From Candidatus Rokuibacteriota bacterium (GTDB lineage Bacteria; Methylomirabilota; Methylomirabilia; Rokubacteriales; CSP1-6), in the NCBI GenBank assembly GCA_016188005.1, contig JACPIQ010000002.1, positions 1 to 64,000 of the forward strand: a stretch of DNA of 64,000 nt, given 5' to 3'. Under the pieces are notes generated by a model. That model ran no database searches, was not told the DNA's origin, and saw only the letters and a program-made list of their open reading frames with translations. The position numbers and the translations under genes are program-made. Positions 6,698 through 63,167 of this stretch are shown one piece after another (position 1 is the first letter of the stretch; each line of letters starts with the position of its first letter).

Positions 6698-7018
6698 ATG
6701 GGTCCGGTGTCGCCGGCCGCTTACCTGATTCTCCCTCTGATGGGGGTCGCTGCCTCCCTGGCGCTGCACAATCTCTGGATGTGGCTCGAGCGAAGGAACG
6801 AGCCGCTTCACCTGTGGGTGGGCGCGTGGTGCGCCAACAGCTTGCTCGCCTACTGCAAGAAGGTCAGGAACGACAGCAACTACTGGCAGACCATCGAGGC
6901 CTATATCGGCGAACGCTCGGCGGCCACCTTCAGCCACGGCATCTGCCCCGACTGCCGGGAGAAGATCGTCCAGCCGGAGCTGGAGCGCTGGCGGAGGGAG
7001 CGGGACAACGACCGCTGA
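6698..7018 (+). CDS. Internally deleted duplicate of the adjacent sensor protein (106 aa)
   Basis: This short gene joins the N-terminus of the next gene's product to its C-terminus with everything between lost. Residues 1-45 (GPVSPAAYLILPLMGVAAS onward) match the first membrane helix and following segment of the 685-residue neighbour. From residue 50, YCKKVRNDSNYWQTIEAYIG to FSHGICPDCREKI matches its C-terminal CxxC module. The first Cys of the module (CAYC in the neighbour) is replaced by Leu (LAYC), so the four-Cys site is incomplete. GGGGAGG at 6687-6693 favours ATG 6698 over GTG 6695. It could be a decaying duplicate or a small membrane-anchored decoy; which one is unknown. Confidence 0.65.
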   Translation: MGPVSPAAYLILPLMGVAASLALHNLWMWLERRNEPLHLWVGAWCANSLLAYCKKVRNDSNYWQTIEAYIGERSAATFSHGICPDCREKIVQPELERWRRERDNDR

Positions 7019-7075: not shown

Positions 7076-9133
7076 ATGCTGGCCCCGGTTTCTCCCATGA
7101 CCTGGCTTCTCCCTCCGCTGATGGGCGTGGCGGCGTACCTCGCCGCCCACCACCTGTGGATCTGGCTCGCCCGCCGCGAGCCACTGCACCTCTGGGTGGC
7201 CGCCTGGAGTACCACCAGCGTCGTCTACATCGTGAGCCACTACGTCCAGCTGGTCCCCGGCCGACCCGGGCAGATCGTGCTCGGCGGGCGGCTGGCCTGG
7301 ACGAGCGCCGCCATCCTCATCGTGATCTTCATCGGGTTGAGCCATGCCCTCGCGGGGCACCCGCAGCCCCGCCGGCTGATGTGGGCGGCAGGGGCCGTCA
7401 CCGCGGCGCTGCTGGCAGTGATCTGGGGAACCGCGCTCCTGGTCACCGACCGCACGTACGTTCGCACCGATCTGCTCGGCTTCCCGCAGCCGACGCCCGT
7501 CCCCGGGCCCCTCGTCCCCGCGTTCGTCCCGTTGATTCTCGCCGCGTTCGGCTATGTCTGGCACAGGCTCGGGCTCGCGGGAATGGAGGCGGGGGAGCGG
7601 CGGTTCAACCGCGTGGCCCTGGTCGTGTACGCCCTGCTGGGCCTGAACGACGTGCTTCACGAGGGGCGCCTCATCCAGAGCGTGCGCGTCTTCGACTTCG
7701 CCTTCGTCGCGGTCGGCGCCGGCCTCACGCACGTGCTGGTGAAGCGCTACGCGCGCCTCTCCGCCCGCCTCGAGGAGGAGGTGGCGGCCCAGACCCGGGA
7801 GGCCCATGTCCGACGTGCGGAGATGACGGCGCTGGCCGTCGACAACACGCGTCTCTACGAGGCCGCCCGGCGCCGGCTTCGAGAGTCAGAGGCCCTGCAG
7901 AACGTCAGTCACGTGCTCGCCGAGACCGGGGATCTGACGGAGACGGTGCGGCGCGTGGCCCGGGAGGCGGCCCGCGCGCTCGAGGCGGACATGGTGGGCG
8001 TGTACCTGGCCGATGACGAAGGATCGGTCTTGCGGCCCGTGGCGGGCTACCACGTCCCGCCGGATCGCCTCCGGGACTTCCTGCAATTCCCCTTCCCGGT
8101 CAGGGGGCATCGCGCCGTGGAGGAGGCGCAGGAGACGGGGCAGCCGGTATGGTCCAGCGATGCCGAGACCGATGCCCGGATCGACCGCGAGAGCTGGCAG
8201 CGCTTCCCTCACCGCTCGTCGCTCTTCGTTCCCATGGGGAGCCGGGAGGCGCTGCTCGGGGGCATCTTCGCGGTGTGGTGGGAGGAGCGTCGGGAGGCGA
8301 CTCCCGAAGACCTGAGGCTCGCGCTGGCCATCGGCCACCACGCGTCAGCGATCATCGAGAAGGCGCGCCTGTACGAGGCGCTCGCCCGGCGGCTCGAGCG
8401 GATGGAGACGCTCACGCGGCTCAGCCGCATCCTCTCCTCGTCCCTGGAGCGGAACACCGTGCTCCGCGAGATCGCCCGTGCGGCCGCCCAGCTCATGAAT
8501 GTCCCCGCCGCCTCCTTCTGGCTGGCCGACGAGGCGGCGCAGAGCATCGAGCTGATCGGCTTCTCGGATCCCGCGCTGGAGGCGGACTGGCCCATCAGGG
8601 TGCTCCGCTTCCACGATGGCGTGCTCGGTTGGGTGGCCACTCAGCGGCGACCGCTGCACGTTCCCGATGCGTTCGCCGACGGACGGTTCGGGGCCCTGGA
8701 GTGGTGGCGGGCGCATGGCCTCAGGAGCTTTCATGGTGTTCCCGTCCTGCACGAGGGGGCGCTCCTGGCCGTCCTCTCGCTGAACGGCACCGAGCCGTTC
8801 CGGCTCGGACCCGAGGACGAGGCGCTGCTCGGCGCCTTCGTGGCCCAGGCGGCCGTGGCCATCCGGAACGCCTCGCTGTACGAGGCCGAGGGGCAGGCGC
8901 GCCATACTGCCGAGGCGGCGCTGGCGGACGTGAAGCAGCTTCAGGGCCTGCTTCCTATCTGCGCCTACTGCAAGAAGATCAGGAACGACAGCAATTACTG
9001 GCAGAGCATCGAGGCCTATCTCGGCGAGCGCTCCCAGGCCACCTTCAGTCACGGCATCTGCCCCGACTGCCGCGAGCGGATCGTGAAGCCCGCGCTGGAG
9101 CGCTGGCGGCGGGGCGAGGACGAGCCGGCCTGA
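7076..9133 (+). CDS. Membrane sensor with 7 TM helices, two GAF domains and a C-terminal CxxC-CxxC module
   Basis: The 685-residue protein begins with about seven hydrophobic helices (to residue 240), then a coiled-coil linker (SARLEEEVAAQTREAHVRR). A GAF domain follows near 273-430 and a second near 442-600. The C-terminus has LLPICAYCKKIRNDSNYW and FSHGICPDCRERI near 624-665, giving a Cx2C...Cx2C pattern that could bind zinc. No histidine-kinase, GGDEF, phosphatase or DNA-binding domain is present. This terminal module is common after PAS, GAF or receiver domains in soil bacteria, but I know of no assigned function. ATG 7076 is preferred over ATG 7052 because GAGGAG at 7061-7066 is well placed for it. 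The ligand is unknown. Confidence 0.8.
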   Translation: MLAPVSPMTWLLPPLMGVAAYLAAHHLWIWLARREPLHLWVAAWSTTSVVYIVSHYVQLVPGRPGQIVLGGRLAWTSAAILIVIFIGLSHALAGHPQPRRLMWAAGAVTAALLAVIWGTALLVTDRTYVRTDLLGFPQPTPVPGPLVPAFVPLILAAFGYVWHRLGLAGMEAGERRFNRVALVVYALLGLNDVLHEGRLIQSVRVFDFAFVAVGAGLTHVLVKRYARLSARLEEEVAAQTREAHVRRAEMTALAVDNTRLYEAARRRLRESEALQNVSHVLAETGDLTETVRRVAREAARALEADMVGVYLADDEGSVLRPVAGYHVPPDRLRDFLQFPFPVRGHRAVEEAQETGQPVWSSDAETDARIDRESWQRFPHRSSLFVPMGSREALLGGIFAVWWEERREATPEDLRLALAIGHHASAIIEKARLYEALARRLERMETLTRLSRILSSSLERNTVLREIARAAAQLMNVPAASFWLADEAAQSIELIGFSDPALEADWPIRVLRFHDGVLGWVATQRRPLHVPDAFADGRFGALEWWRAHGLRSFHGVPVLHEGALLAVLSLNGTEPFRLGPEDEALLGAFVAQAAVAIRNASLYEAEGQARHTAEAALADVKQLQGLLPICAYCKKIRNDSNYWQSIEAYLGERSQATFSHGICPDCRERIVKPALERWRRGEDEPA

Positions 9134-10551: not shown

Positions 10552-11745
10552 ATGGACTTCGACTTCACCCCCGGGCAGCAGGCCTTCCGCCGCGAGGTGC
10601 GGGCGTGGCTCGCGGCCAATGTCCCGGCCGACCTCAAGGGACGCGGCTTCGCCTCCTCGCGCGCGGACCGCGAGCACGTGGACCGGCTCCGGGCCTGGCA
10701 GCGCACGCTCCACGAGGCGGGATACGTCGGCGTCGACTGGCCGGCCGAGTACGGCGGCCGCGGCGCCTCGATCATGGAGCAGGTGATCCTCTACGAGGAG
10801 ATGGCACGGGCCCAGAGCCCGCAGCCGGTGAACCGCGGCGGGCTCTCCGTGCTGGGCCCGACGCTGATGACCCACGGGACGCCGGCCCAGCGGGCGCGCC
10901 ACCTGGACAAGATCCTCACCGCCGAGGAGATCTGGTGCCAGGGCTTCTCGGAGCCGGAGGCCGGCAGCGACCTCGCCAATCTCAAGACGCACGCGGTGCT
11001 CGAGGGGGACCACTACGTCGTCACGGGCCAGAAGGTGTGGACGAGCATGGCGCACGTGTCGGAGTGGGGCTTCTTCCTCGTCCGCACCGATCCCACGGCG
11101 CCGAAGCACAAGGGGATCACCTTCCTCCTCATCGACATGAGGAGCCCCGGGATCAGCATCCGGCCGCTGCGCCAGATCACGGGCGAGGCGGAGTTCAACG
11201 AGGTGTTCCTGGAGGGTGTCCGGGTGCCCGTCACCAACGTCGTGGGCCGGGTCAACGAGGGCTGGGGCGTGGCGCTCACCACGCTCGCCTACGAGCGCGA
11301 CGTGCTGACCATGATCCGGCACATCAGCCTGCGCACGGCCCTGGAGCGGCTGATGGCCCTCGCCAGGCGCACGCGGAAGGACGGAGGCATGGCAGCGCAC
11401 GACCCCGTGGTGCGCCAGAAGGTTGCAGGCCTCGTCATCGGCGAGCGGGTGCTCCAGCTCAACGGCTACCGGAGCCTCACCCGCATCCTCAAGGGCGCGG
11501 CCCCCGGCCCCGAAGGGTCCACCTCGAAGCTCTTCTGGAGCCAGGTGGACCAGGACCTGGCGGAGGTCGCCACGGAGGTGATCGGCCCCTACGCGCAGCT
11601 GGAGGGCCCGAGTCCCTGGGCGCCGGACGAGGGGCAGTGGGCCTTCTACGCGGTCCTGGCCCGCGGCAGCGGCATCCGCGCAGGCACCTCCGAGATCCTG
11701 CGCAACATCCTCGGCGAGCGCGTCCTCGGCCTGCCCAAGGATTGA
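10552..11745 (+). CDS. Acyl-CoA dehydrogenase family protein
   Basis: A 397-residue flavoprotein that introduces an alpha-beta double bond into an acyl-CoA. Typical family stretches are present: FSEPEAGSDLANLKTHA near residues 129-145, GQKVWTSMAHVSEWG, and the C-terminal GTSEILRNILGERVLGLPKD. The usual YEG catalytic position near the C-terminus is not Glu here. A Glu in AYERDVL near residue 248 corresponds to the alternative base used by isovaleryl-CoA dehydrogenase-type members, so the active site may be of that kind (inference). GAGG precedes the ATG. It lies between the SDR and the crotonase-fold gene, each junction being filled by a dispersed repeat. Confidence 0.92.
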   Translation: MDFDFTPGQQAFRREVRAWLAANVPADLKGRGFASSRADREHVDRLRAWQRTLHEAGYVGVDWPAEYGGRGASIMEQVILYEEMARAQSPQPVNRGGLSVLGPTLMTHGTPAQRARHLDKILTAEEIWCQGFSEPEAGSDLANLKTHAVLEGDHYVVTGQKVWTSMAHVSEWGFFLVRTDPTAPKHKGITFLLIDMRSPGISIRPLRQITGEAEFNEVFLEGVRVPVTNVVGRVNEGWGVALTTLAYERDVLTMIRHISLRTALERLMALARRTRKDGGMAAHDPVVRQKVAGLVIGERVLQLNGYRSLTRILKGAAPGPEGSTSKLFWSQVDQDLAEVATEVIGPYAQLEGPSPWAPDEGQWAFYAVLARGSGIRAGTSEILRNILGERVLGLPKD

Positions 11746-11747
11746 TT

Positions 11748-11808
11748 GGCGAGCCGCAGCCGAAGGCGAGGCGAGCGGATATGGAAGAGGGCCCGAGCGG
11801 AGCGAGGG
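11748..11808 (+). repeat. Dispersed repeat type A, copy 1
   Basis: A roughly 60-bp sequence (GGCGAGCCGCAGCCGAAGGC, then GAGGCGAGCGGATATGG and GAGCGGAGCGAGGG) starting a few bases after the acyl-CoA dehydrogenase stop. It is nearly the same as the units at 47905-48099 and is found inverted at 23591-23629. Its last bases supply the Shine-Dalgarno-like GGGAGAGG of the following gene. It is open in the frame of that gene. Confidence 0.8.
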
Positions 11809-11816
11809 AGAGGACC

Positions 11817-12611
11817 ATGTCGACCCAGACGGACGAGCTGCTCTATGACGTCAAGGACCGGATCGCCACGCTCACGCTGAACCGACCCGAGAAGATGAAC
11901 GCCTTCACGGGCCCGATGATCCAGCGCTGGGCCTGGGCGCTCGGAGAGGCGCAGCAGGACCCCGAGGTCAGCGTGGTGGTGGTGACCGGGGCGGGCAAGG
12001 CCGTCTGCGCCGGCGGCGACGTCGCGCGCATGGACGAGGGGGAGCCGACGGCGCTGGACCACAAGAACATGCTGTGGGAGCACGTCCACCGGATCCCGAA
12101 GGCGCTCGAGGCCATGGACAAGCCGGTCATCGCCATGGTCAACGGCGTGGCGGTGGGCGCTGGCATGGGGATGGCGCTCATGTGCGACGTGCGCATCGCC
12201 TCGGAGACGGCACGCTTCTCCACCGGCTACGTGAAGGTGGGGCTGGTGCCCGGGGACGGCGACACGTACTTCCTGCCACGGCTCGTGGGCGGCGCCAAGG
12301 CGCTGGAGCTCCTGTGGACGGCGGACTTCATCGAGGCCGCCGAGGCCGAGCGGCTCGGCATCGTGAACCGCGTCGTCCCCCCCGCGCTCCTCGCCGAGGA
12401 GACCTATCACCTGGCGCGGCGCATCGCCGAGGGGCCGCAGGTGCCCATCCGCATGATCAAGCGGCTCGTCTACCAGTCGCTGCGACTCGACCTGCGCACC
12501 CACCTGGACCTGGTGTCCTCGCACATGGCCGTGGTGCGTGAGACCGCCGACCACCGGGAAGGCGTGCAGGCCTTCAAGGAGAAGCGCCCGCCCCGCTTCA
12601 CCGGCCGGTAG
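11817..12611 (+). CDS. Enoyl-CoA hydratase/isomerase (crotonase) family protein lacking both classical catalytic Glu residues
   Basis: The 264-residue protein has the crotonase fold: oxyanion-hole stretch VCAGGDVARMD near residues 63-73 and NGVAVGAGMGMALMCDVRIA near 109-128, then GLVPGDGDTYFLPRLVGG. In enoyl-CoA hydratase the two acid residues (Glu144 and Glu164 of the rat enzyme) lie in GGGCE and QPE. Here these positions read GAGMG (Gly118) and GYV (Tyr138), so neither acid is present. The protein may be an isomerase, thioesterase or lyase of the superfamily rather than a hydratase. It follows the acyl-CoA dehydrogenase, separated only by a type A repeat that carries its ribosome-binding site. 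Confidence 0.85.
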   Translation: MSTQTDELLYDVKDRIATLTLNRPEKMNAFTGPMIQRWAWALGEAQQDPEVSVVVVTGAGKAVCAGGDVARMDEGEPTALDHKNMLWEHVHRIPKALEAMDKPVIAMVNGVAVGAGMGMALMCDVRIASETARFSTGYVKVGLVPGDGDTYFLPRLVGGAKALELLWTADFIEAAEAERLGIVNRVVPPALLAEETYHLARRIAEGPQVPIRMIKRLVYQSLRLDLRTHLDLVSSHMAVVRETADHREGVQAFKEKRPPRFTGR

Positions 12612-22087: not shown

Positions 22088-23544
22088 GCCCGACCCTCGT
22101 CCTGCCCGTCATCAGTTTCCGCGCCATCGCGCCGGTCACGGTGGTGGCGGCGGCCGCCTGCCTCCTGCTGCTCCTCGATCTCCTGCCGACGCGGGGCCGC
22201 AAGGACCACCTGGGCGTCGTGGGGCTGGCGGGCGTCGTCCTGTCCATGATCCTCACGCTGAGCCTCTGGGGGTCCGACGAGCGGGCGTTCAACGGCATGG
22301 TGCGGCTCGACGGCTTCGCCCTCTTCTTCGACCTCGTCATCGGCTTCGCCACCGGGCTCGTGCTGCTGCTCTCACTCGACTACCTGCGGCGCCAGGGGAT
22401 GGAGTCGGGCGAGTTCTACATCCTCGTCCTCTTCGCGGCCGTCGGCATGATGCTCATGGCGGCGGCGGGGGACCTCATCGTGGTCTTCCTGGGCCTCGAG
22501 ATCATGTCGCTGTCGCTCTACGTCCTGGCCGGCTGGTTCGTGGGGCGGCTCGAGGCGGGCGAGGCCGCCATGAAGTACTTCCTCCTCGGCGCCTTCGCGT
22601 CGGGCTTCTTCCTCTACGGCATCGCGCTCATCTTCGGCGCCACGGGCTCGACCAACCTCGACCGGATCGGCGTGGCGGTGGGGGCGGGCGCCGGGCGCGA
22701 CCCGCTGCTGCTGATCGGGCTCGGGCTCCTGGTGGTGGGCTTCGGCTTCAAGATCTCCTCGGTGCCCTTCCACATGTGGGCCTCGGATGTGTACCAGGGC
22801 GCGCCGACCTCCGTGACCGCGCTCATCGCCACCGGCTCCAAGGCGGCGGCCTTCGCCGCGCTCCTCCGCGTGCTCCTCTCCGCAATGCGGGCGGCCCAGC
22901 CCGACTGGACGATGCTGATGTGGTGGCTCGCCGTGCTCAGCATGACGGTGGGCAACGTCGTCGCCCTCGCCCAGCAGAACATCAAGCGGATGCTCGCCTA
23001 CTCCTCCATCGCGCACGTGGGCTACATCCTCGTGGGCGTGGTGGCGGGCGGGGCGCTGGGCGGCGGCAGCGTGCTCTTCTACCTGCTCGTCTATACCTTC
23101 ACCACCGCGGGGGCCTTCGGCGTCATCCTGCTCCTCGAGCGGGAGGGGCGGGAGGCGGTGGAGGTGGGCGACCTGGCGGGTCTCGCCACGCGGCACCCGG
23201 TGCTGGCGCTCGCCTTCTCCGTGTTCCTGCTCTCGCTGACCGGCATCCCGCCCATGGCAGGCTTCGTCGGGAAGTTCTACCTCTTCGGGGCAGCCGTGCG
23301 AACCGGGTACGTGTGGCTCGCCGTGATCGGCGTGCTCAACTCGGCCATCGCCGCCTACTACTACCTCCGGCTGATCGTCTACATGTACATGCGCGACCCC
23401 GCGGGCGCCCCGACCGTCCTGGTCCCGTCCTTCCCGGCGGGGCTCGCGCTGGCCGTCGCCCTGTGGGGCGTGGTGCAGCTCGGGGTGCTGCCCGCGCCCT
23501 TCCTCGATCTGGCCCAGGCGGCCGTCCTCCCGCTGCTCCGGTAG
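22084..23544 (+). CDS. nuoN: NADH-quinone oxidoreductase subunit N
   Basis: A 486-residue antiporter-like complex I subunit with about 14 helices. It shows [17 protein letters not shown] near residue 137, [20 protein letters not shown] near 229 and [14 protein letters not shown] near 308. Translation most likely starts at GTG 22084, overlapping the nuoM stop as GTGA. Its TAG stop coincides with the left edge of a long repeat element, so the element sits exactly at the end of the operon's last nuo gene. Confidence 0.95.
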
Positions 23545-23784
23545 TGCCGGGCCGGCTGGCTTCGCCATGCTCGCTCACGCTCGCATGACTCCCATATCCG
23601 CTCGTCTTGCCTGCGGCTGCGCCTCGCTCAGCCACGTTCTCGGTCGTCGCCAGCGCTCAACGTACACCCACGTACGCCTCGCGCCCGCCGCTTCGCTCCC
23701 CTCCCGGCTTCGCTCGCCTCGCCTTCGGCTGCGGCTCCCATGGCGATCCTCGGGCCTCGTCTGGCTCGCCATCCGTCCCGGCAC
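23544..23784. repeat. Composite intercistronic repeat with terminal inverted repeats (type R, copy 2)
   Basis: GTGCCGGGCCGGCTGGC at 23544-23560 is inverted at 23768-23784 (15 of 17 matching). The 241-bp interior holds the core shared with the 10.4-kb copy (CTCAACGTACACCCACGTAC, 23657-23676). It also holds two reverse-oriented type A sequences, one at 23591-23629 (CCCATATCCGCTCG onward) and one near 23708-23742. It fills the gap between nuoN and the HAD gene, overlapping the nuoN stop and ending 6 bp before the next GTG. Confidence 0.8.
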
Positions 23785-23790
23785 CGAGCT

Positions 23791-46646: not shown

Positions 46647-47901
<1,255 letters not shown>

Positions 47902-47902
<1 letters not shown>

Positions 47903-48768
47903 TGGGCGAGCCGCAGCCGGAGGCGAGGCGAGCGGATATGGGGATTCCCCGAGCGGAGCGAGGTGGCGAGCCGCAGCCCGCCGTGCGAGGCGCAGCCGAA
48001 GGCGAGCCGAGCGACGTGGATCGAGAAGCGCGAAGCGCGCCGAGGCGAGCGGATATGGGGATTCCCCGAGCGGAGCGAGGTGGCGAGCCGCAGCCCGCCC
48101 TGACCCTCGCCCTGCCCAAGGGGCGGCTCCTCGAGCCGGCCCTGGCCCTGCTTGCCTCGCTCGGGATGCGTGGCCTCGGCGGGGAGTCCAGGCGCCTCGT
48201 CGTGACCGACGAGACCCGCGAGCTGCGCTTCATCTTCCTCAAGCCTGCGGACGTCCCCACCTACGTGCAGTACGGGGCGGCCGATCTCGGCATCGTGGGC
48301 AAGGACATCCTGGCCGAGCAGGAGCCGGACGTCTACGAGCCGGTGGATCTCGGCTTCGGGCACTGCCGTCTCGTCGTCGCGGAGTCCCGGGCACTCTGGG
48401 AGCGGGACGATCCGGCCCGGTGGTCCTGGGTGCGCGTGGCGACGAAGTACCCGACGCTGACCGAGCGCTACTTCTCCGAGCGGGGTATCCAGGTGGAGAT
48501 GATCCGCCTGGACGGCTCCATCGAGCTGGCGCCGCTCGTCGGCCTCGCGGAGCGGATCGTGGACCTCGTTCAGTCGGGGGAGACGCTGCGGGCCAATGGT
48601 CTCGTGGAGGTGGCGCAGATCATGAGCTCCACGGCCAGGCTCATCGTCAATCGCGCCTCGCTCAAGACGGCGCACGCCCGCGTGAGCGCGCTGATCGCTG
48701 CCGTCCGCCGGGCGGTGTCCGCTCCAGGCGCGTCCGTCGGCGCCCCCGCCACGAGGCCCGCGCCATGA
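47902..48768 (+). CDS. hisG: ATP phosphoribosyltransferase catalytic subunit (short form) with repeat-derived N-terminal extension
   Basis: Catalyses the first step of histidine synthesis, joining ATP and PRPP. The HisG core starts near base 48100 with [18 protein letters not shown] and continues through [20 protein letters not shown] and ERYFSERGI to [20 protein letters not shown]. With about 220 core residues and no C-terminal regulatory domain it is the short form, which normally needs HisZ; no hisZ is in the window. The frame is open back to ATG 47902, overlapping the murA stop, but the first 66 codons come from type A repeats. In-frame ATG 48055, inside the second repeat unit, is the other possible start. 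Which start is used is unresolved. Confidence 0.92.
47905..48099 (+). repeat. Dispersed repeat type A, tandem units inside the hisG frame
   Basis: A 59-bp sequence at 47924-47982 recurs without change at 48041-48099, a period of 117 bp or exactly 39 codons. Each unit includes GAGGCGAGCGGATATGGGG and GAGCGGAGCGAGGTGG. Together with the partial unit at 47905 it fills the murA-hisG junction and encodes the repeated peptide [19 protein letters not shown]. It matches the copy at 11748-11808. Confidence 0.88.
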
Positions 48769-62738: not shown

Positions 62739-62813
62739 GCTGGCGTAGCTCAGGGGAAGAGCAACTGCCTTGTAAGCAGTGGGTCGGGGGTTCAAATCCT
62801 CCCGCCAGCGCCA
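62739..62813 (+). tRNA. tRNA-Thr (anticodon TGT)
   Basis: Acceptor GCTGGCG pairs with CGCCAGC (62803-62809), D-stem GCTC/GAGC, anticodon stem ACTGC/GCAGT with loop CTTGTAA, and T-arm GTTCAAAT. CCA is encoded (62811-62813). First of four tRNAs in front of tuf. Confidence 0.96.
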
Positions 62814-62847
62814 GCGTTTCCGGGGAGTTGTCGTCCGGGGAACGGGC

Positions 62848-62933
62848 GGGGAGATACCCAAGTGGCCAAAGGGGGCAGACTGTAAATCTGCTGGCGCACG
62901 CCTTCGGGGGTTCAAATCCTCCTCTCCCCACCA
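62848..62933 (+). tRNA. tRNA-Tyr (anticodon GTA)
   Basis: Class II tRNA with long variable arm. Acceptor GGGGAGA pairs with TCTCCCC (62923-62929), anticodon stem GCAGA/TCTGC with loop CTGTAAA, T-loop GTTCAAAT, CCA encoded at 62931-62933. Confidence 0.96.
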
Positions 62934-62972
62934 CTTTTCTCGCGGGGGCTGGGAAGCGCGCCGAACGGGCAG

Positions 62973-63047
62973 GCGGGAATAGCTCAGCGGTAGAGCGCCA
63001 GCCTTCCAAGCTGGGGGTCGCGGGTTCGAATACCGTTTCCCGCTCCA
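62973..63047 (+). tRNA. tRNA-Gly (anticodon TCC)
   Basis: Acceptor GCGGGAA pairs with TTCCCGC (63037-63043), D-stem GCTC/GAGC, anticodon stem CCAGC/GCTGG with loop CTTCCAA, T-loop GTTCGAAT, CCA encoded at 63045-63047. Confidence 0.96.
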
Positions 63048-63091
63048 TCGGCTCTTCCGCGGCGCGAGGCACGACCGGGGTCAGCATTCGG

Positions 63092-63167
<76 letters not shown>

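Follow-up and report, generated by a model that had tools for sequence, protein, structure and literature searches.

In this Candidatus Rokuibacteriota genome (5.37 Mb, 140 contigs), a short hairpin repeat recurs where one gene ends and the next begins. One of its copies, located between an acyl-CoA dehydrogenase gene and a crotonase-fold gene, was interpreted in an initial annotation as a mobile repeat that brings a translation start signal with it. The question raised by this locus is whether the repeat carries such signals, and whether the neighbouring genes make use of them. The window, i.e., the whole stretch of 64,000 nucleotides containing the site, corresponds to positions 1-64000 of contig C2, and the sequence analysed has a G+C content of 71%.

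The repeat family is real and lies far above chance expectation. A query consisting of window positions 11742-11820 gave at least 79 matches in the 5.37 Mb genome, with 40 of the 88 first-look candidates scored. When up to three mismatches were allowed, a 20-base core gave 84 matches vs 2 for the reversed-pattern control, and a 59-position profile gave 107 hits, grouped in 58 clusters at E <=10 and 54 clusters at E <=1e-4. Depending on the locus, the arrays contain one to five repeat units. Matches occur in 17 of the 40 genomes searched, the own genome included, and the best ones belong to two genomes of the same genus. Rfam, applied at gathering thresholds to the window and four other loci, returned only four tRNAs, all of them within the window, and the literature search found no paper about this repeat, as judged by the title or the start of the abstract. 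The orientation counts given below pool the own genome (G000) and the two same-genus genomes (G001 and G002), and the three-genome counts contain orthologous junctions. The copies from G001 and G002 are a sample: each genome contributed 20 stretches, G002 also L121 and L191, and at least three listed G001 places and one listed G002 place are omitted. Gene starts are the calls of a small purpose-made codon-usage caller, and the distinction between stand-alone, composite and third-type copies follows a crude string rule.

Other repeated features were encountered along with the family. A tandem array at L091:4082-4372 is built, by eye, from a larger unit of ~117 nt with a GAGCGCGAAGCGCGCC segment absent from the basic unit, a segment that by eye is also present in the hisG array. 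The window additionally contains a pair of 26-nt inverted arms (454-479 and 573-598, 96% complementary, 93 nt apart) at a predicted gene end, a direct duplication of 152 nt (6847-6998 and 8962-9113, 89% identical), and a cluster of four tRNA genes (62739-63164).

The unit of ~60 nt consists of a 5' tag, often TGATTG, followed by a hairpin H1, a linker and a second hairpin H2, and GA/GA mismatches break up the stems of both hairpins. In most copies the linker sequence is GGANRTGG; among the positions located by a loose pattern, 109 have ATG and 9 have GTG. The repeat is predicted to be a pair of hairpins, a case that rests on covariation among copies and not on single-copy fold energies. In 35 aligned copies, taken from 61 full-length hits after exclusion of copies with a longer H1 that the aligner misplaced, 93.5% of the cells are paired vs 84.6% upon shuffling, and 37 cells have changed on both sides vs 18.7. 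None of 500 shuffles matched the paired cells, the double-change cells or the covariation score, and slid versions of the named structure reached at most 40.4% paired cells. Strong covarying pairs occur at columns 13-31 (CG 26, GC 6), 54-71 (GC 15, CG 10) and 55-70 (CG 18, GC 16). The signal is weaker when double-changed pairs are counted (5 vs 3.9 shuffled, reached by 44 of 500 shuffles) or further pair types (12 vs 9.9, reached by 42 of 500). With respect to single copies, the folding energies of five copies were no better than those of their shuffles (z -1.25 to 0.57); the minimum-energy folds of five copies show H1 in four and H2 in three, and the first hisG copy displays neither.

The bases preceding the core are only partly conserved among the 62 first copies of arrays, with G at position -5 in 57 and at position -1 in 51 of them. 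TGATTG stands directly before the core in 10, and the tag position reads TGA in 18, which is the stop codon of the upstream gene in 13 cases. GTAG at positions -5 to -2 was found in just 9 of the 62, the G at -5 being the sole conserved base there; CGTC at one end is a trait of RPEs.

Table 1. Features of the window at the repeat-bearing sites (positions in the window).
Feature	Position	Strand	Remark
Acyl-CoA dehydrogenase gene, upstream of the repeat	10552..11745	+	Pfam Acyl-CoA_dh_1, _M, _N
5' tag TGATTG of the repeat	11743..11748	+	TGA 11743-11745 is the acyl-CoA dehydrogenase stop
Predicted hairpin H1, GC-GA-GCC-GCA-GCC-GAA-GGC-GA-GGC-GA-GC	11749..11776	+	fold, covarying pairs
Linker ATG, in frame with the crotonase ATG 11817	11781..11783	+	
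Predicted hairpin H2, CCC-GA-GC-GGA-GC-GA-GGG	11792..11808	+	fold, covarying pairs
GGGAGAGG, SD-like run made of repeat and flank at their border	11806..11813	+	
Enoyl-CoA hydratase/isomerase (crotonase-fold) gene	11817..12611	+	Pfam ECH_1
Two partial/diverged copies in a longer composite element, antisense to the neighbours	23570..23737	-	
hisG start ATG (native), overlaps the TGA stop of murA (47900-47902)	47902..47904	+	
Array between murA and hisG with three profile hits; no stop in the hisG frame	47906..48079	+	empty site in G001
Repeat ATG in the hisG frame, last unit (another at 47938-47940)	48055..48057	+	

At the reported site, where the repeat core is the profile match 11749-11806, the repeat does begin at the acyl-CoA dehydrogenase stop, as had been noticed, the TGA lying at its 5' edge. 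This stop codon is the clearest delivery of the repeat at the site. G001 and G002 have an insertion at the same junction, and their upstream gene has kept an earlier TAG stop, followed by a few bases and then by the tag TTGATTG; in G000 the bases between TAG and tag are absent, and the TGA of the tag is the stop of the acyl-CoA dehydrogenase gene. The SD-like run of the crotonase gene, which the initial annotation had ascribed to the last bases of the repeat, belongs to the repeat core for its first one or two bases and to the flank for the remainder, resulting in a hybrid of GAGCGAGG from the repeat and GAGAGG from the flank, the start of which is overlapped by the GGG of the H2 3' arm. The same junction devoid of the repeat is readable in eight relatives, six of which possess a purine run of their own, either GGAGAG (G003 TGAGGGAGAGCCATG and G009 TGACGGAGAGAAGCGTCATG) or another run (G004, G008, G010 and G013), the other two having none (G007 and G014). 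Since repeat-less relatives have purine runs at this place, the flank may have held its part of the SD-like run before the insertion took place, the repeat then adding GAGCGAGG. Within the genus the flank after the repeat differs (GAGAGGACC, AGGACAGCC and GGGATAGCC), and in G001 repeat and flank jointly read GAGCGAGGAGGACAGCC, which contains AGGAGG. The predicted anti-SD pairing at the reported site amounts to -7.8 kcal/mol, and to -6.6 kcal/mol with the array reversed.

Stand-alone arrays are mostly located between co-directional genes (57 '++', 6 '--', 5 '-+', 3 '+-' and 2 unresolved, n=73), with a sense to antisense ratio of 57:6 (p 1.6e-11 for the pooled genomes; 27:2 in G000 alone). The composite class comprises 13 '--', 9 '++' and 3 others (n=25), and the third class 6 '--', 3 '++' and 2 others (n=11). 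When all classes are pooled the bias becomes weaker (69 '++' vs 25 '--') because the composite copies are mostly antisense. A stop occurs in 33 of 219 array frames read in the sense direction and in 8 of 219 read in the antisense direction; antisense frames being freer of stops, open frames do not explain the orientation bias. In 42 stand-alone arrays the distance from the upstream stop to the core is -5 to 20 nt, and this stop is a TGA in 14 of 14 cases at the 3-nt offset vs 468 of 688 elsewhere.

On the downstream side, the three genomes offer 69 sense clusters between co-directional genes, 59 of which have their called start either ahead of the array's end or at most 60 nt past it. The start candidates at these 59 junctions lie upstream of, inside or past the array, and an ordinary start past the array occurs at most junctions. 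The constant repeat-to-start distance on which the initial annotation had staked its reading was rejected, the distance ranging from -27 to +55 nt at 30 of the 35 sense co-directional junctions of G000 (start <=60 nt); nine of these 30 starts are inside the array and six lie 3-12 nt past it. The linker ATG was also rejected as a general in-frame start, the frames 0/1/2 of the last copy being 20/8/31 of 59, with no above-chance excess in frame. An ATG, GTG or TTG at the linker is slightly commoner at stand-alone co-directional sites (72/120) than elsewhere (46/98).

The predicted ability of the array to pair with the anti-SD depends largely on its base composition. At 25 junctions with a start 0-12 nt past the array, orthologous junctions among them, the mean pairing is -7.66 kcal/mol, vs -4.05 kcal/mol with the array reversed, which is weaker in 25 of 25. 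Upon shuffling that keeps the same-strand composition, the mean still reaches -6.88 kcal/mol, the sense array being better in 17 of 25 (p 0.019), and 212 other starts have a median of -6.4 vs -7.2 (p 0.015). The purine-rich composition explains most of the anti-SD effect of the array.

The hisG gene, for which the same arrangement had been claimed, resembles the reported site in that both have a repeat ATG in the frame of the downstream gene (11781; 47938 and 48055), but the hisG array is inside the hisG frame, after the native ATG. The repeat-less site of G001 reads GCC TGATGG ACAGGCACGGT CTG ACT CTC, the hisG ATG overlapping the murA stop, and the array of G000 starts directly after TGATGG. 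No ATG, GTG or TTG is listed within ~65 nt past this array, the length of which is equal in G002 and G000. With 13 N positions omitted from the counts, the extension differs between these two genomes by eight substitutions (2/0/6 on codon positions 1/2/3) and no length change, and the hisG body by 15/8/30.

A candidate for a start brought by the repeat is found at livG, whose product contains the Pfam domains ABC_tran and BCA_ABC_TP_C. From 120 nt before the array to ~35 nt after it, in-frame ATG, GTG or TTG codons lie solely in the repeat, the candidates being the repeat's ATG and a GTG after it. G001 has the same start arrangement with two repeat units, and G020, where the repeat is absent, has no clear start by eye; the junction is readable in these two, the other seven genomes having been searched without a resolved junction. 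Repeat-less counterparts exist in relatives for the hisG, crotonase, rimM, psd, miaA and permease gene junctions. At rimM, four relatives (L225, L227, L228 and L230) show, by eye, an overlap of the khpA stop with a TTG or GTG, an upstream TTG and the repeat ATG are both in frame in G000, and G001 and G002 carry arrays of their own. At psd, the frame of the gene runs through the G000 array from a GTG overlapping the upstream stop; the array is absent from G003, G004, G005, G008, G010, G019 and G020, G001 has only an array fragment, and G002 a different sequence of ~300 nt. For miaA, in-frame starts occur before the array (GTG), in the repeat (two ATGs) and 14 nt past the array (GTG). The permease gene junction (L099:8336) reads TGATGGATCTCGTC in G001, and TGATGG, array, ATGGACCTCGTC in G000. 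In some cases a neighbour now appears to rely on a signal carried by the repeat, the acyl-CoA dehydrogenase gene for its stop and livG for its start.

The repeat also lies in frame within protein genes, including 21 genes that span an array and some interior cases. In-frame interior copies, all in frame A, were seen at L155:3028 and L157:3966 (G001) and at L181:3100 (G002), and the genes at L155:3028 and L181:3100 look alike by eye.

The composite element of the window extends over ~250 bp (23543-23790, minus strand) and was also seen at L063, L064, L086 and L102. By eye it ends with GTGCCGGGCC and GGGCCGGCAC, with two diverged repeat copies within, and its copies end ~26 nt from the stop codons of the neighbours to which they are antisense.

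Taken together, we regard it as somewhat probable that the repeat is a REP/RPE-like element kept at co-directional junctions, some features of which can act as translation signals, and not a dedicated start cassette. The repeat would persist where harm is least, at or ~20-30 nt from the stop/start junction of co-directional genes, and insertions that keep both neighbours translated would survive. In the sense orientation the tag can serve as a stop, an ATG is frequent in the linker, and the purine-rich 3' end could pair with the anti-SD of the ribosome; where the signals of neither neighbour are left between, open frames would be read through as extra amino acids. Selection would then account for the orientation. 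A bolder reading makes the repeat a mobile and portable termination-reinitiation junction, which ends the preceding gene with a stop and gives the following one either an SD with a start or an in-frame extension; operons would thereby absorb it without loss of translation, and some core genes (livG, possibly hisG, rimM, miaA and psd) would now start from the repeat. The livG junction, the orientation bias and the hybrid SDs point in this direction, but the spacing varies, most junctions have an ordinary start downstream and the composition control speaks against it, and we consider it improbable. At the other extreme, an inert REP-like element could be restricted to places after stops as the only ones tolerated in a dense genome, downstream genes using their own signals. 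Coding sequence makes up 92% of what was fetched, most junctions have a start past the array, at the crotonase site most repeat-less relatives possess a purine run themselves, and REPs elsewhere occur near the 3' ends of upstream ORFs (PMC3733652, as excerpted); such inertness does not, by itself, predict the 57:6 orientation, nor that the livG start candidates are found only in the repeat, and is somewhat doubtful.

The sense bias could also be a target effect, devoid of any selection on translation, if the mover recognised a TGNTNG-like target resembling stop/start overlaps (TGATG). The conserved G residues at -5 and -1 would fit, as would the empty G001 sites at hisG and the permease gene, which already read TGATGG, and the ATGG flanking the permease gene array on both sides, one suggestive case of a target-site duplication, a trait of MITEs. 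However, comparison of L168 with the empty site in L086 indicates that TGATTG apparently arrives with the element, and words common to both flanks are barely longer than shuffled (3.46 vs 3.06; 19 of 300 shuffles reach). A Y1 transposase (RAYT; PF01797) occurs in 11 of 26 genomes, including one each in G001, G002 and G004; none was found in G000, which is 98% complete, and it was rejected as the mover for the own genome. Some species with REPs have no RAYT. Insertion guided by a target appears likewise somewhat doubtful as the source of the bias. Less plausible still, a peptide-coding element comparable to the Rickettsia palindromic elements would be kept as an in-frame hydrophilic peptide at the ends or in the interior of proteins. 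The first-copy frame, read in 20 of the 21 spanning genes, is A in 11, C in 8 and B in 1, in-frame interior insertions occur in G001 and G002, and the hisG substitutions lean towards third positions; but the frames in use are two and not one, the array lies outside the called frames of both genes at most junctions, and the hisG extension offers only eight substitutions. For the initial annotation, this means that its observation is partly confirmed and its interpretation partly supported. That the repeat brings translation signals gains support elsewhere, from the orientation bias, from the comparison with reversed arrays and from livG; at the reported site the SD is a hybrid, the spacing is variable in general, and the gain over the composition control is small.

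If the stops, ribosome-binding sites and starts borne by the repeat are used, they would allow selfish DNA to enter gene-dense operons with translation intact, and the repeat-encoded N-terminal tails on HisG, RimM and other conserved proteins would be real and no annotation errors. The 57:6 orientation bias makes the claim about translation signals concrete and testable, and the repeat stands as a warning for start-site prediction in the clade.

Compared with known systems, the repeat is of a REP/RPE-like kind but a member of neither group. It is set apart because a conserved GTAG tag and a RAYT, both features of REPs, were not found, and its size is not that of RPEs. The excerpted account of Di Nocera and colleagues (PMC3733652) describes GTAG/CGTC-tagged REPs as short high-copy hairpins, near the 3' end of the upstream ORF and at varying distance from the downstream ORF, often between unidirectional genes; their GTAG ends provide stop codons, and some lie in frame inside genes, some of them N-terminal. 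The repeat shares this setting, the ends that can provide stops and the in-frame occurrences, but it lacks a conserved GTAG tag, its two hairpins are unlike and have GA/GA mismatches in their stems, its sense orientation is strong, and no Y1 transposase was found in its own genome. RPEs, in the excerpted texts (PMC2229807, PMC10969869), fuse in frame to Rickettsia genes and measure 105-146 or ~150 bp. Open frames that turn into in-frame parts of protein genes are common to both, whereas the unit described here has ~60 nt (59-position profile), forms tandem arrays and is mostly found at gene junctions. For E. coli REPs situated no more than 15 nt from a stop, an excerpted source (PMC12306157) reports a down-regulation of translation, and the repeat is likened to them by position alone, just after the upstream stop.
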